64,000 nucleotides of DNA, from NCBI RefSeq assembly GCF_002119805.1, contig NZ_CP021059.1, forward strand, positions 930,001-994,000, read 5' to 3'. The position numbers were made by a program, and so were the translations under genes. How positions within the stretch are numbered: position 1 is the first letter of the stretch; every line of letters starts with the position of its first letter. Shown here in pieces: positions 58,918 to 63,746 of the stretch. The notes beneath the pieces are model-generated. The model was given only the letters and a program-made list of their open reading frames with translations. It was not told the DNA's origin and did no database searches. This DNA is from Macrococcoides canis (GTDB lineage: Bacteria > Bacillota > Bacilli > Staphylococcales > Staphylococcaceae).

Positions 58918-58991
58918 ATTATTTTCCTCCTTTTTGTTTATCATACACTGTTTAGGATAAAATTAAAAATATAATCAAAGAGGTGATTAAG

Positions 58992-59279
58992 ATGATATTA
59001 TTTACGAATCCATTGGACACGATGCAGGAATTTATTGCAGATAAAGAAGCACAGCTGCAACATATGGTGGATATGCTCACGACGATGATTCTATTAGGTT
59101 TTGGCGCTATTCTCTTAACTTCAGGAGTCACTTTATATTTACTTTACAAAATATACAGACAGACAAATAAGCACTATGTCGATCGAATTAAAGCAGAGGT
59201 TGAAAAAGAGCTTATCCATAAGTATAATCTCGAACTAAAAGAGGAATATAAATCTTACTTACAAAAAAAAGAGTTGTAA
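58992..59279 (+). CDS. Uncharacterised small membrane protein upstream of kup
   Basis: A 95-residue protein of unknown function. A short N-terminal amphipathic part is followed by one transmembrane helix (about residues 30-54, TMILLGFGAILLTSGVTLYLLY) and a highly charged, probably coiled-coil cytoplasmic tail (about 60-95). AAAGAGGTG precedes the ATG at 58992. A TATAAT at 58970-58975 is a plausible -10. No terminator separates it from kup, 55 nt downstream, so the two may be co-transcribed. Confidence 0.7.
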   Translation: MILFTNPLDTMQEFIADKEAQLQHMVDMLTTMILLGFGAILLTSGVTLYLLYKIYRQTNKHYVDRIKAEVEKELIHKYNLELKEEYKSYLQKKEL

Positions 59280-59334
59280 TGTTTGAGGATTAATCGTAAA
59301 ATGCATTGAATATTAAAAAAAATGAGGCGAATAT

Positions 59335-61314
59335 ATGCAAGGTAATGTTAAACAAAAACTTCGTATTTCAATGCTATTTGTTGCATTAGGGGTTGTATAT
59401 GGTGATATCGGAACGTCCCCGTTATATGTAATGAATGCGATTGTTGCAACAAATGGTGGTATGGCCGCTATGACAGAGGAATATATATTAGGATGTCTAT
59501 CACTAGTTATCTGGACATTAACGATGCTGACGACAGTTAAGTACGTTCTGATATGTATGCAGGCTGATAATCACGGTGAAGGTGGGATTTTCAGCTTATA
59601 TACATTAGTACGTAAACAGAAGAAATGGCTCGTAATTCCTGCGATGATTGGGGGAGCAGCACTACTCGCTGATGGTATTTTAACGCCTGCTGTAACTGTA
59701 TCAGCTGCAATTGAAGGACTAGCAGAAATTCCTTATTTCTATAATGCTTTCGCTTCGAATCAGAAGAATGTTATCATGATTGTTATCGTAATTATTACTG
59801 CAATATTTTTCTTTCAAAGATTCGGTACTGGAAGTATAGGTAAAGTATTTGGTCCGTTGATGTTCATCTGGTTTACGATGATAGGCTTATTTGGTTTAAT
59901 GCAGCTTGTAACTGATTTATCGATATTACGTGCATTTAATCCTTTATACGGTATCAATATTTTGTTCAGTCCAGACAATAAGATGGGACTGTTAATATTA
60001 GGGACAGTCTTTCTATGTGCTACAGGTGCAGAGGCCTTATATTCAGATATGGGTCATGTAGGTAAGAAATCTATCTATGTAACATGGCCGTTTGTTAAGG
60101 TGATGTTAATATTAAGTTATCTTGGACAAGGAGCATGGACGATCAATCATATGAAGGATGATTTTCATGGTGAAACAATCAATCCATTCTTTCAGATTAT
60201 GCCGGAATCATTTATTCTTATCGGCGTAATAATGGCAACAATTGCTGCAATTATTGCATCTCAAGCGTTGATTACTGGTGCGTTTACTCTAGTTTCTGAG
60301 GCAATCCATCTTAGATTTATGCCGAAATTAGACATCAAGTACCCTTCTACGATAAAAGGTCAGATGTATATCCCTGTAGTAACCGGTGTAATCTGGTTTT
60401 TATGTATACTCGTTGTACTATATTTCAAGACTTCAGTTAATATGGAAGCAGCGTATGGTCTAAGTATCACAGTGACGATGATGATGACAACTGTATTGCT
60501 TTGCAACTATTTGATTATGAAACACGTAAATAAGCTATTGATATTTATGATGACACTCTTTTTTATGCTGCTTGAGATGGCGTTCTTCTTCTCAAGTCTT
60601 GCAAAATTTATGCATGGCGGTTATGTCGCAGTACTGATTTCAGGGTTACTCATCTTTGTGATGATAATCTGGTATAACGGCTATCTTATAAAAGACAGAC
60701 AATCTTATGATGTACATATAGAACGTTACTTAGGTCAGCTCAAATCTCTATCAGCTGACCGTAAAGTGCCGAAATTTGCTACAAATCTTGTCTATTTAAC
60801 AACGAATGAAGATATGAATATGATAGAAAAGCAAGTCATCAAATCCATACTTGATGGCCGTCCTAAGCGTGCGGATGTATATTGGTTTGTCAACGTACTT
60901 GTTAGTGATGATCCATTCCAGGTTAATTATCGGATAGAGAAGTTTGGAACAGATAATATCTTTAAAGTACAATTGATTCTAGGATTTAGAATGCATCAAA
61001 ATGTAAATTACTATGTGAAGACGATTGCAAGAAGTTTAATTCAGTCGAAAGAGATGAAGGAGCAGTTTCGTGCATATGGTACGAATAACTTAAAAGTAAT
61101 CAGTGATTTTCAGTTTATAATATTGAAAGATGAAGTACCGCTCGATGCGAATATTGCTTGGTATCAAAAACTCATTTTACAGTGGAAACTGGAGTTAAAG
61201 CGTTATACAGCTTCACCAGTTAAATGGTTTGAACTTCCTTCAAATGAAGTTATATATGAGACGATACCGCTCACGGTTCCATTAGAGAAATCACATTCAA
61301 TTAAAAGAATATAG
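59335..61314 (+). CDS. kup: Kup-type potassium uptake protein
   Basis: K+/H+ symporter of the KUP/HAK/KT family. The signature GVVYGDIGTSPLYVMNAI is at about residues 20-37, and about 12 hydrophobic segments fill residues 15-460. A cytoplasmic C-terminal domain (about 465-659) is soluble, as in other bacterial Kup proteins. The 659 residues are full length. ATGAGGCG precedes the ATG. Its terminator has been split by the insertion sequence just downstream, so kup transcripts may now run into the element. Confidence 0.95.
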   Translation: MQGNVKQKLRISMLFVALGVVYGDIGTSPLYVMNAIVATNGGMAAMTEEYILGCLSLVIWTLTMLTTVKYVLICMQADNHGEGGIFSLYTLVRKQKKWLVIPAMIGGAALLADGILTPAVTVSAAIEGLAEIPYFYNAFASNQKNVIMIVIVIITAIFFFQRFGTGSIGKVFGPLMFIWFTMIGLFGLMQLVTDLSILRAFNPLYGINILFSPDNKMGLLILGTVFLCATGAEALYSDMGHVGKKSIYVTWPFVKVMLILSYLGQGAWTINHMKDDFHGETINPFFQIMPESFILIGVIMATIAAIIASQALITGAFTLVSEAIHLRFMPKLDIKYPSTIKGQMYIPVVTGVIWFLCILVVLYFKTSVNMEAAYGLSITVTMMMTTVLLCNYLIMKHVNKLLIFMMTLFFMLLEMAFFFSSLAKFMHGGYVAVLISGLLIFVMIIWYNGYLIKDRQSYDVHIERYLGQLKSLSADRKVPKFATNLVYLTTNEDMNMIEKQVIKSILDGRPKRADVYWFVNVLVSDDPFQVNYRIEKFGTDNIFKVQLILGFRMHQNVNYYVKTIARSLIQSKEMKEQFRAYGTNNLKVISDFQFIILKDEVPLDANIAWYQKLILQWKLELKRYTASPVKWFELPSNEVIYETIPLTVPLEKSHSIKRI

Positions 61315-61326
61315 AAAAACCGGCAT
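61311..61326 (+). terminator. Left half of the interrupted kup terminator
   Basis: ATAGAAAAACCGGCAT is the exact reverse complement of 62808-62823 on the far side of the insertion sequence. Rejoining them (minus one CAT copy) gives a perfect 16-bp stem with a one-base centre and a T-tract in the second arm. Confidence 0.85.
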
Positions 61327-61356
61327 TGTAGTGAACCCAAAAAGTTGAACTTTTTA

Positions 61357-62166
61357 TTAAGCTACTTTCATTAAAGCAAGATTTCTGTATTCTACAGGAG
61401 TCTTGCTTTTTAATTTTCTCTTCTTTCTGACTAAATTATAATACTCCATATAGTCAATAATCTCCTCTTCTAGTTCATCATAAGAATCAAATGTTTCTCC
61501 ATAAAACATTTCTTGTTTTAAAATACCAAAGAAATTCTCCATCGGAGAATTATCAAGACAATTACCTTTTCTAGACATGCTTTGAATAATTCTATTCTTT
61601 TTCAAGGTTTGTACCCAAGATTTATGCTGATATTGCCACCCTTGATCGGAATGGATTGTAGTTCTATAGGGAAGGTCTGGAATTACACAAATTGCTTTTA
61701 ACAATGATTCCATAACGAATTCCAATGTTGGACGCTTACTAATTGAATAAGAAATAATCTCTTTCGAACATACATCAAAAATTGTTGAAAGATATAGCTT
61801 AGTTCCATTTTTAATGTTGAATTGTGTTACATCAGTAAGTAATTTTTGATATGGGCGATTAGTTACGAATCTACGATTCAATTTATTCTTAGCTGTTTTG
61901 CCAACTTTCCCTTTGTACGACTTATATGTTCTATTTCTATGCTTAAACTTTGTACAAAGTAAATTATTTTCTCTCATTATTCTAAGAACTTTTTTATGGT
62001 TAACTACAAAACCTAACTCTCTTAGTTCGTCGGTTACTGTACGATAACCTATCCTATTTTTATGTTTGTTAATGATTTCTTTAATCAAAGTAATTAAATA
62101 ATTGTCTTTATGTTTAATGACACTAAGTTGTAATTTCCAATAATAGTATACACTTTTCGCTATCAT
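61357..62166 (-). CDS. IS3-family transposase OrfB (DDE integrase domain)
   Basis: Catalytic part of the transposase. The HTH_21-type region (NKHKNRIGYRTVTDELRELG) leads to the rve integrase core with the DDE residues in LLTDVTQF, TIHSDQGWQY and SPMENFFGIL. The C-terminal DYMEYYNLVRKKRKLKSKTP is typical. Coordinates are for the ATG-started 269-residue ORF; the frame is open upstream to the slippery site at 62271-62277, so the active product is probably an OrfAB fusion made by -1 frameshifting. Confidence 0.92.
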   Translation of the reverse strand: MIAKSVYYYWKLQLSVIKHKDNYLITLIKEIINKHKNRIGYRTVTDELRELGFVVNHKKVLRIMRENNLLCTKFKHRNRTYKSYKGKVGKTAKNKLNRRFVTNRPYQKLLTDVTQFNIKNGTKLYLSTIFDVCSKEIISYSISKRPTLEFVMESLLKAICVIPDLPYRTTIHSDQGWQYQHKSWVQTLKKNRIIQSMSRKGNCLDNSPMENFFGILKQEMFYGETFDSYDELEEEIIDYMEYYNLVRKKRKLKSKTPVEYRNLALMKVA

Positions 62167-62231
62167 AGCTACTGATAATATTTCTTTTAACTTATAGTTA
62201 GATTCATTCCTTAACTCGATAATAGCAGCTA

Positions 62232-62750
62232 CTATTTCTTTGTTTGATTTTTTCGAGCTAAGGATTGTAACTTTTTTTCGAGAGCAATTGCGATTTCTAA
62301 TCTCCTGTTTTCCTCACGTAAGCGTATTAATTCTTGTCGTTCACTTTCGTTTAAACGAGTGTTATCAACATCTTTATTTTTCATAGTTTTAGACGCACGA
62401 CCCTTCGGTTTTGATTCTAAACCTAGGATACCATATTGATTGTATTTCATCTGCCACTGAGCTATTAAAGTAGGATTAGTAATCTCAAAGATTCTAGCAG
62501 TTTCTTTATATGAAAGTTGATTAGTAATTCTATACTGAATGATTCTTAATTTTTCATCTGTTGAATATTTCTTTCTGGTCATATTTGATATAAGGCCGTC
62601 AATACCGAAGGTATCAAATTGGTAAGTCCATGTTTTTAGTTGTGAAGGATCGATATCATATTTGTTACTTAATGAATCATAACCAATATTTCCTTCTTTA
62701 TATTCTTTGATTAGTTTTAATTTAATATCAAGATTATACTTTTTATTCAA
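62232..62750 (-). CDS. IS3-family transposase OrfA (helix-turn-helix protein)
   Basis: DNA-binding part of the transposase, 172 residues. Two helix-turn-helix units are visible (YDSLSNKYDIDPSQLKTW and YKETARIFEITNPTLIAQW), as in the IS150 group, with a leucine-zipper-like ERQELIRLREENRRLEIAIA near the C-terminus. I use the TTG at 62750, 8 nt after AGGGG; the GTG at 62759 overlaps that site. The A_AAA_AAG heptamer at 62277-62271 is in the correct frame for -1 slippage into OrfB. Confidence 0.9.
   Translation of the reverse strand: MNKKYNLDIKLKLIKEYKEGNIGYDSLSNKYDIDPSQLKTWTYQFDTFGIDGLISNMTRKKYSTDEKLRIIQYRITNQLSYKETARIFEITNPTLIAQWQMKYNQYGILGLESKPKGRASKTMKNKDVDNTRLNESERQELIRLREENRRLEIAIALEKKLQSLARKNQTKK
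62271..62277 (-). other. Programmed -1 frameshift site A_AAA_AAG
   Basis: On the minus strand the orfA codons GAA AAA AAG contain the heptamer A_AAA_AAG in phase. After slippage the frame stays open into orfB. A second A6 run at 62248-62253 is also compatible. Confidence 0.85.
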
Positions 62751-62756
62751 AATAAA

Positions 62757-62796
62757 CACCCCTAAAGTTGAATTTTAAGGTTCAACTTTAGGGGTG
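62757..62796 (-). other. IS-internal hairpin covering the orfA ribosome binding site
   Basis: CACCCCTAAAGTTGAA and TTCAACTTTAGGGGTG form a perfect 16-bp stem with an 8-nt loop. On the minus strand the second arm contains the AGGGG used by orfA. Confidence 0.85.
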
Positions 62797-62807
62797 CACT
62801 TCACATA

Positions 62808-62823
62808 ATGCCGGTTTTTCTAT
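62808..62823 (+). terminator. Right half of the interrupted kup terminator
   Basis: ATGCCGGTTTTTCTAT, complementary to 61311-61326, including the T-tract that would have ended kup transcription. Confidence 0.85.
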
Positions 62824-62840
62824 ATTCACAGCTAAGAGAA

Positions 62841-62849
62841 TGTTATAAT
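62841..62849 (+). promoter_or_regulatory. Extended -10 promoter of rsgA
   Basis: TG-T-TATAAT, with the TG at 62841-62842 and TATAAT at 62844-62849, lies between the split terminator and rsgA. It implies transcription starts near 62856, so the rsgA start codon must be downstream of that. Confidence 0.65.
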
Positions 62850-62870
62850 TTATGTGAACATGAAGAAGAG

Positions 62871-63746
62871 GTGATATGTATTAAAGGTCAGATCATAAAA
62901 GCTTTAAGTGGTTTCTACTATGTAAAAAGTGATGATAGCATATATCAATGCCGTGCGAGAGGTAATTTTAGGAAACGCGGTATCTCTCCATTAGTAGGTG
63001 ATTTTGTAGAATTTCAGATCGAAAATGAAACGGATGGTTATATCCTGTCGATTGAAGAACGAAATAACAGTATGGTACGTCCGCCTGTAGCCAACATCGA
63101 TCGCGTAATCGTAGTATTAAGTGCAAAAGAGCCCGAATTCAGCTTAAATTTACTGGACAAGTTTCTCGTTAAAGTTGAATCATATGGCATTGAACCTGTG
63201 ATTCTTGTCACAAAGAAGGATCTTATTAATCAAGATGAGACGTTATTTATTGAACGCGCGTTAGGCTATTATGAATCCATTGGATATGAAACATATTTTG
63301 TTACTAATCTTAATGAACAGTCATATGATGCGCTTGTTCAAGGTATTACCGTGCTTGCAGGACAATCAGGTGTAGGGAAGTCTTCATTTATCAATAGTCT
63401 GATACCTGATGCTAATTTAAATACGGGTGTAATCAGCAACGCTTTAAATCGTGGAAAACATACGACAAGGCATGTCGAATTGATACCGTTACAAAATGGT
63501 TATATTGCAGATACACCAGGGTTCAGCTCCCTTGAACTGGATAATATCGATAAGTATGAGCTCAAGAATATGTTCCCTGATTTCGTTAAGCTTGCACCAC
63601 AATGTAAGTTTAGAGAATGTCTGCATCTAAATGAACCGAATTGTGCGATAAAAAAAGCGATTGAGACAGGTGAAGTGCTGCAATCAAGATATGATCATTA
63701 TTTACAGATGATGTCTGAAATCGAGAATAGAAAGGTGAGATATTGA
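62871..63746 (+). CDS. rsgA: Ribosome small-subunit-dependent GTPase A
   Basis: Circularly permuted GTPase that helps mature the 30S subunit. An N-terminal OB domain precedes the GTPase with the G4 motif VTKKDL, the P-loop LAGQSGVGKSSFINSL and G3 DTPGFSS. The C-terminal zinc motif is CKFRECLHLNEPNC. The frame is open back into the IS junction, but the promoter lies inside that stretch. Two starts fit: GTG at 62871, and ATT at 62880, which has AAGAGGTG at ideal spacing and aligns with the N-terminus of Bacillus and Staphylococcus RsgA. I give the GTG; length from it is 291 residues. It shares one base with rpe. Confidence 0.93.
   Translation: MICIKGQIIKALSGFYYVKSDDSIYQCRARGNFRKRGISPLVGDFVEFQIENETDGYILSIEERNNSMVRPPVANIDRVIVVLSAKEPEFSLNLLDKFLVKVESYGIEPVILVTKKDLINQDETLFIERALGYYESIGYETYFVTNLNEQSYDALVQGITVLAGQSGVGKSSFINSLIPDANLNTGVISNALNRGKHTTRHVELIPLQNGYIADTPGFSSLELDNIDKYELKNMFPDFVKLAPQCKFRECLHLNEPNCAIKKAIETGEVLQSRYDHYLQMMSEIENRKVRY

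Follow-up and report, generated by a model that had tools for sequence, protein, structure and literature searches.

The kup locus and its split hairpin

The analysed stretch of 64,000 nucleotides from Macrococcoides canis (hereafter, the window) carries kup, encoding a potassium uptake protein (59335..61314, + strand), followed by a complete IS3-family insertion sequence (IS) of 1,477 bp (61327..62803) with its transposase on the - strand, and by rsgA (62871..63746, + strand). The kup open reading frame (ORF) matches Kup models strongly but below the curated cut-off (TIGR00794, E = 2.4e-106; 356.8 bits vs 539.6), and rsgA matches TIGR00157 above cut-off (5.6e-76). The listed rsgA ORF begins at 62808, but translation more probably starts near 62871.

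The IS separates the two arms of a hairpin, recognised by their complementarity and by the fold of the joined empty site. The left arm occupies 61307..61326 (+) and the right arm, with a T-tract, 62808..62827 (+), the latter thus containing the listed rsgA start. Complementarity is 100% over 21 nt (61307-61327 and 62807-62827); since 61327 is already the first base of the IS, the host arms comprise 20 nt around A62807. With the IS removed, the joined site folds into a 19-bp stem with a 3-nt loop (-28.5 kcal/mol), beginning inside the last kup codons (the ORF ends at 61314). The original prediction, which placed the IS in the dyad of a terminator on the basis of complementary flanks and held that its removal restores a stem, is upheld on both counts and was slightly understated (host arms of 20 nt rather than 16 nt, stem of 19 bp rather than 16 bp). 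The palindrome score of the site is 47, a value reached by none of 8,887 positions sampled elsewhere in the window. The target core, AAAAACCGGCATAATGCCGGTTTTT, is shaped like an intrinsic terminator: it has A- and T-tracts, and the T-tract directly follows its GC-containing stem. This sequence suggests that the hairpin now split would terminate kup in vivo. None of eight other Macrococcoides genomes yielded the kup site without the IS: three have no kup match and five have a different sequence behind kup.

Anatomy and classification of the element

The 27-nt ends of the IS are 81% complementary, with the left terminal inverted repeat (IRL, 61327..61353, +) paired with the right (IRR, 62777..62803, -). 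They start with TG, an IS3-family trait, and are flanked by two copies of a CAT target duplication (61324..61326 and 62804..62806; no strand assigned) read in the sequence. Short target duplications are likewise a trait of this family, and a 3-bp duplication is present at 8/8 sites of this IS. OrfA, the helix-turn-helix part of the transposase (62232..62759, -), matches HTH_28 and HTH_Tnp_1. OrfB, the catalytic part (61357..62166, -), is an rve-type DDE transposase that matches NF033516 (transpos_IS3, 5e-84) above its curated cut-off, together with rve, rve_2 and HTH_21 (PF00665 and PF13333 included). The OrfB frame stays open to about 62313, overlapping the OrfA frame, and in the overlap lies a run of A followed by G (62271..62278, -), which the OrfA frame divides as A AAA AAG. 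Slippery runs of this kind are used for -1 frameshifting in the IS3 family, and by its sequence the motif at 62277-62271 is likely such a site. Within the IS3 family the element is probably IS150-like, its ends resembling those of IS150.

The host genome contains three full copies of the IS (99-100% identical). A sequence comparison of OrfB with solved structures gave no match at E 0.01, and the plasmid and phage collections, from which close records may have been omitted, yielded no copy with 80% coverage of the IS.

Sampling and scoring of insertion sites

A tblastn search returned 62 hits at 60 loci, of which four were dropped, an end not being found, and 58 were scored. The focal set consisted of eight independent insertions of the IS in four Macrococcoides genomes; eight sister sites belonged to relatives of 67-71% identity (G089, G073 and G013). 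Single-ended or truncated junctions (L012, L021, L026, L045, L046, L050, L058, L060, L191, L192 and L194) were left uncounted, because one flank cannot test a dyad. L040, among the further relatives, was dropped because an end was not found, L109 and L110 represent one site in two genomes, and composites G007 and G002 share a common site that was counted once.

Sites with a palindrome score of 21 or more were taken to pass. The settings were revised once (longer loops, milder penalties), and seven of the eight focal sites passed at this cut both ways; under the earlier settings, at most 40 of 8,887 window positions matched the score of any of these seven. An RNAfold apical-loop test (at least 6 enclosing pairs) was dropped as non-discriminating, being satisfied by 1,546 of 3,888 window positions vs 6 of 8 focal sites.

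Insertion sites of the element and its relatives

Seven of the eight focal sites, which are all that are known, pass the palindrome test, their stems being unrelated (mean identity of 38% over 12 nt). The corresponding share is 1.1% among 12,443 positions of the window and 8.4% among 663 outside ORFs. Against the non-ORF rate the binomial p is 2.3e-7, the null being taken solely from the window and unmatched to the other genomes. The failing site (L003) is part of a tandem array of hairpins and falls at the base of one of them, outside any loop. Natural empty alleles, carried by relatives, of two further sites, L001 (in L170-L172) and L010 (in L179 and L180), are intact intrinsic terminators by sequence. 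It had been predicted that the element selects hairpin or terminator targets, and a survey of other copies had been proposed in which random sites would speak against this; instead, the focal sites lie at palindrome centres in all but one case, and the terminators in the empty alleles of two other sites agree with the prediction.

Among the sister sites 5/8 pass (L093, L095 and L096 fail), as do 4/5 additional bounded relatives (L080, L197, L198 and L200), and two composite transposons likewise lie in terminators with 3-bp duplications. In 11 of the 16 focal plus sister cases, an ORF runs towards the insertion and ends within 35 bp of it. Such positions just behind genes, where little damage is done, are what one would expect if insertion were random and selection spared just those copies that do no harm, as in terminators. 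We consider this highly improbable, given that only 8.4% of non-ORF positions pass, that the duplication midpoint lies no more than 3 nt from the dyad centre in 11 of the 12 sites that pass in these two sets, a precision that avoidance of harm would not give, and that a related element scored identically passes at 0/20 sites with several copies apparently within ORFs. A second group of relatives, under identical scoring, passes at 0/7.

The same location, with targets that are mostly terminator-like, would also suit transcription-dependent targeting, in which a paused polymerase, opened DNA or a nascent hairpin at the terminator attracts the element. This appears quite unlikely; relative G001 targets a dispersed palindromic repeat (6/6 copies in one repeat) that is not known to be transcribed. 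As to whether the IS is inserted in a fixed direction with respect to the terminator, the one-sided cases (4 to 1 by eye) are too few for a claim.

The cue itself is most likely a hairpin or cruciform, or the dyad as such, rather than base sequence, because stems and duplications vary from one target to the next (10 different triplets among the 16), whereas insertion at the dyad centre is constant. In a rather unlikely alternative, no extruded hairpin is involved, and the transposase instead recognises either a pattern along the DNA (an A-tract, GC-rich core and T-tract, or bent DNA) or a symmetric protein site. A- and T-tract bases are indeed enriched about 12-14 nt from the insertion, so the tracts may belong to the cue, and relatives use defined repeats (G001, as above, and G022, whose 7/7 copies fall, by eye, in a single family of tandem repeats). 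However, neither duplications nor stems yield a consensus, and the distance of the A-tract from the duplication midpoint ranges from 5 to 17 nt in the 12 passing sites, with the dyad centre remaining fixed. Since these related elements target sequence-defined repeats, recognition in the clade as a whole is not purely structural.

Terminator-like hairpins carried by the element

An inward-facing, terminator-like hairpin lies just inside each end of the IS. The left one, on the kup side (61373..61409, +), has 17 pairs (-20.9 kcal/mol) followed by TTAATTTTC, a T-rich tail; it sits 46 bp within the junction, faces kup transcription and overlaps OrfB in its last codons only. The right one (62756..62797, -) has 17 pairs (-26.6 kcal/mol) followed by TTATTTTGA. 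Counterparts below -12 kcal/mol on the left occur in 14/15 copies examined (L099 lacks one) and below -17 kcal/mol on the right in 13/15 (L111 and L144 lack one), and in these relatives pairing is maintained despite base changes on both sides.

These hairpins bear on the proposal that the IS removes the kup terminator and may send kup transcripts antisense through the transposase gene. The host terminator as such is broken, because its arms are physically separated by the IS (1.48 kb apart). The sequence nevertheless does not support this part of the original prediction, with putative terminators facing inward at both ends, the left one opposing kup transcription and widely retained among relatives, and we consider read-through of this kind very unlikely.

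Proposed mechanism and significance

We consider it likely that the IS150-like transposase complex of this IS3-family element picks the centres of intrinsic-terminator palindromes, duplicates 3 bp and substitutes its own predicted terminators. The complex would select the centre of the palindrome; insertion, as read from the sequence, falls within a few bases of the dyad centre with a 3-bp duplication, and therefore both arms survive, parted by the IS. Because an inward hairpin lies just inside each end, the broken host terminator is probably exchanged for an IS-borne one and the transposase gene shielded from outside transcripts, provided that the predicted hairpins are active. The element would thereby gain nearly neutral sites behind genes to land in, which would favour its spread.

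More tentatively, an IS150-like clade of Staphylococcaceae and a neighbouring family of the same order may be guided by hairpin shape or dyad, may have switched between generic terminators and palindromic or tandem repeats specific to the host, and may replace terminators with no loss of the target. Given conserved inward terminators in this clade, each insertion would exchange the host's terminator for that of the element.

Intrinsic terminators are a common feature of bacterial genomes; their sequences vary, and they are extragenic. With an IS3-family transposase that seeks them out, one can ask in a tractable setting whether target choice by a DDE transposase can follow DNA shape, and the clade allows one to ask what divided its members into lineages using generic terminators and lineages using specific repeats. 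The element also alters how such insertions should be interpreted: termination can survive one if substitute terminators come with the IS.

Comparison with known systems

Elements that seek terminators or palindromes are already known (IS1272/TnSha1, IS1397/ISKpn1), and the present IS varies that theme. Group IIC introns are retroelements that insert at intrinsic terminators, beside the stem; terminator targeting is shared with the present IS, whereas DDE transposition into the loop is found in the IS only.

IS1397 and ISKpn1, as described in the relevant part of Tobes and Pareja (2006; PMC1525189), are IS3-family elements that target REP palindromic units outside genes, with the choice ascribed to the transposase. 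The present IS resembles them as an IS3-family element entering extragenic palindromes, but where they use one repeated REP family it targets terminators unrelated in sequence (PMC1525189). ISPsy8, also of the IS3 family, and other REP-seeking elements are described there as strongly preferring extragenic palindromes; these are repeat-specific, whereas the present IS uses generic terminators (PMC1525189). The low identity among the focal targets given above rules out a REP-specific IS.

IS1272 and TnSha1, found in the related genus Staphylococcus, enter hairpins without sequence consensus, some of them terminators confirmed by RNA-seq, and carried cargo obeys the same rule, according to the passages concerned in PMC4923244 and PMC5678879. 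These passages assign them to the IS1182 family and describe insertion that removes some or all of the target hairpin and makes no target duplication. The present IS likewise targets terminator hairpins without sequence consensus (PMC4923244, PMC5678879). No IS1182 model was among the families matched at E 0.001 or better, the best match being IS3. Unlike IS1272/TnSha1, the present IS duplicates 3 bp (8/8 sites) and keeps both arms (7/8), which rules out an element of that type.

Insertion of the focal IS behind kup

The IS behind kup (the focal IS) spans 61327-62803 of the window (1,477 bp), has ends of 27 nt each that are 81% complementary, and is bordered by a CAT target duplication. The original prediction placed it in the loop of the kup intrinsic terminator, and its coordinates and hairpin proved correct: the flanks are 100% complementary across 61307-61327 versus 62807-62827 (host arms of 20 nt each, since base 61327 is part of the IS), and once joined they form an empty site with a 19-bp stem, a 3-nt loop, and a folding energy of -28.5 kcal/mol. 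The hairpin starts within the final kup codons (ORF end 61314), both an A-tract and a T-tract are present, and its palindrome score was equalled by none of the 8,887 positions sampled in the rest of the window.

OrfB matches the IS3-family transposase model NF033516 above cut-off, as well as Pfam rve and HTH_21, while OrfA matches HTH_28 and HTH_Tnp_1. Inside OrfA, where the OrfB frame overlaps it, 62277-62271 reads A AAA AAG; in IS3 elements such a run typically marks -1 frameshifting. The host M. canis genome (G000) carries three full copies, 99-100% identical; G004, G007, and G008, three further genomes in the genus, also have full copies, at 98-99% identity. Such near-identity suggests that the focal IS moved recently.

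Insertion sites and palindrome test

Eight independent insertions were identified in four genomes: three in the host (locus L002, which is the kup site, L001, and L003), two in G008 (L009 and the composite L017+L025), two in G004 (L010 and L020/L027, the latter split across two contigs), and one in G007 (the composite L018+L011, at a site shared by genome G002). A 3-bp duplication is present at all eight. Palindromes were scored permitting at most nine unpaired bases on each side of the centre, with a cut of 21. Seven of the eight sites score at least 21. The share is 1.1% among 12,443 window positions and 8.4% among the 663 lying outside ORFs of at least 90 aa; the latter rate gives a binomial probability of 2.3e-7. 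All null positions come from this window, also for the sites in other genomes. With the other copies read in this way, the proposal that the element selects hairpins or terminators as targets is well supported.

The exception, L003, has a score of 10, reached by 2,793 of 8,887 positions, and lies at the foot of one hairpin in a tandem hairpin-repeat array past a gene end, the gene before the array being groEL by eye. This array in the host genome (GTGGCTCGT...ACGAGCCAC; L003:1200-1500, L003:2980-3080) holds one IS copy. Judged by sequence, L009 in G008 adjoins the end of the same gene.

IS-free alleles

IS-free counterparts of occupied hairpins, which the original prediction had proposed as a check, were found in some relatives at L001 and L010, but not at kup. 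Three of the eight relatives read by eye at the L001 site have an IS-free version of the hairpin (perfect in L172, mismatched in L170 and L171); two others show different hairpins, and in the last three neither kind is clear. Seven relatives were read at the L010 site, where the same terminator is intact in L179 and L180, and hairpins that differ from it lie close by in the remaining five. A match to kup was obtained in six of nine genomes, the host among them; no IS-free allele of its hairpin was found in the other five, where the sequence behind kup differs, and in three of these (L163, L164, and L168) a hairpin-like sequence with a T-tract was seen there by eye. Before rsgA, both the gene and the hairpin are different ones in G008 and G004.

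Gene order in the region of kup and rsgA varies within the genus (window 58983-63746; L152, L153, L163-L168). Three genus genomes gave no match to kup. In G008 and G004, the ORF immediately before rsgA is homologous to the 98-aa ORF found upstream of kup in the window.

Target cue

The sites of sister elements (OrfB identity 67-71%; genomes G089, G073, and G013) were pooled with the focal sites. Across the 12 passing sites (score at least 21), the offset of the duplication midpoint from the dyad centre ranges from -5.5 to +3.0 nt, staying within 3 nt in 11, whereas the A-tract lies anywhere between 5 and 17 nt away (11 passing sites having the tract). Over the 12 nt to the left of each focal duplication, mean identity is 38%, and 10 different duplication triplets occur among the 16 sites, focal and sister together. 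These figures favour the dyad or hairpin centre, rather than base sequence, as the cue. A and T are still enriched approximately 12-14 nt from the insertion, which may belong to the cue or may simply be typical of terminators. An ORF end pointing at the insertion lies within 35 bp at 11 of the 16 sites, and six of these 11 are convergent gene pairs.

Related elements

Five of eight sister sites pass. One sister copy (L093; G089:C1:1374800-1379200) interrupts the maturase ORF of a group II intron, where it lies at a short GC hairpin. Sites of further relatives passed at L080, L197, L198, and L200 and failed at L199; L040 was left out as its ends could not be bounded. By genome, passing counts were 6/6 in G001 (L101-L106), 3/5 in G053, 2/2 in G096, 1/1 in G070, 1/5 in G020, 0/1 in both G016 and G032, 0/20 in G018, and 0/7 in G022, with G099 and G100 having one common, passing site. 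Because relatives scored alike range from all passing to 0/20 and 0/7, the method does not itself generate hairpins, and target habits vary across the wider clade.

All G001 copies are centred in one dispersed palindromic repeat, present in 8/9 genus genomes (pattern with at most one mismatch; 12 hits in G000), for which a reversed-pattern control gave one hit across all genomes. This repeat of ~60 bp, dispersed in Macrococcoides, is the target of a distant IS3 relative in G001. By eye, the seven G022 copies read (L131-L137) all lie in one tandem repeat family at nearly the same unit position, and roughly half of those in G018 also fall within a repeat that can be recognised. The pattern of the G022 family matched 94 times in G022 itself and never in three other genomes. 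In the OrfB tree, focal and sister elements group together (support 98/96), followed by G016 (100/98) and then by four elements that come from a different family of the order (100/99); deeper forks are weaker, G001 and G020 form long branches, and the root is a midpoint root only.

Composite transposons

In G008 (L190; G008:C1:1744500-1756500) and G007 (L193; G007:C8:9000-19788), two direct IS copies flank a unit of 4,457-4,461 bp, as they do in G002 judging by contig ends (L013, L019, and L033). The inner unit is 99.6% identical between G008 and G007, has 127-bp perfect inverted ends and, in G008, encodes an ArsR-type regulator, a resolvase, and a P-type ATPase that we take to be of the metal type. 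The outer flanks together form a single terminator at both sites, where the duplications are CCG and ATT; the composite therefore appears to obey the target rule of the single IS. Its inner junctions lack a 3-bp duplication, which suggests that it arose from a circle integrated through one IS.

Terminator-like hairpins at the IS ends

The original prediction also held that kup transcripts may read through into the IS, which the sequence does not support, inward terminator-like hairpins being found at both IS ends: 61373-61409 (+ strand, -20.9 kcal/mol, T-rich tail) and 62797-62756 (- strand, -26.6 kcal/mol). Outward hairpins in the same scan were absent or weak (best -8.6 kcal/mol). Among 15 copies, two of them from one element, 14 have a T-tailed inward hairpin below -12 kcal/mol at the left end (lacking in L099; at a different place in L101) and 13 have one below -17 kcal/mol at the right end (lacking in L111 and L144). 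In eight hand-aligned left hairpins, several pairs changed on both sides (C-G to G-C, A-T to T-A) with pairing kept; these strings were preselected as hairpins, so internal pairing is expected, and the relevant point is that the left-end position retains a hairpin although its bases differ.

Solo short copies of the end hairpins, with the rest of the element absent, occur in several genus genomes (L007, L014, L015, L016, L023, L029, L030, L031, and L035), and some may be remnants now acting as terminators.

Comparison with known systems

Among the best literature matches, which leave most subscription papers and ISfinder uncovered, no title describes an IS3-family element choosing intrinsic terminators, and a prior description is quite possible. 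In published work, the IS3-family elements IS1397 and ISKpn1 use REP palindromes as targets (PMC1525189), and IS1272 and TnSha1 target hairpins, terminators included, without a sequence consensus (PMC4923244, PMC5678879). The latter two are described there as deleting the hairpin partly and making no duplication, whereas the focal IS keeps the stem and duplicates 3 bp. What appears to be new among palindrome-seeking IS is the combination of generic terminator loops as targets, a stem that is kept while 3 bp are duplicated, and terminator-like ends borne by the element itself.
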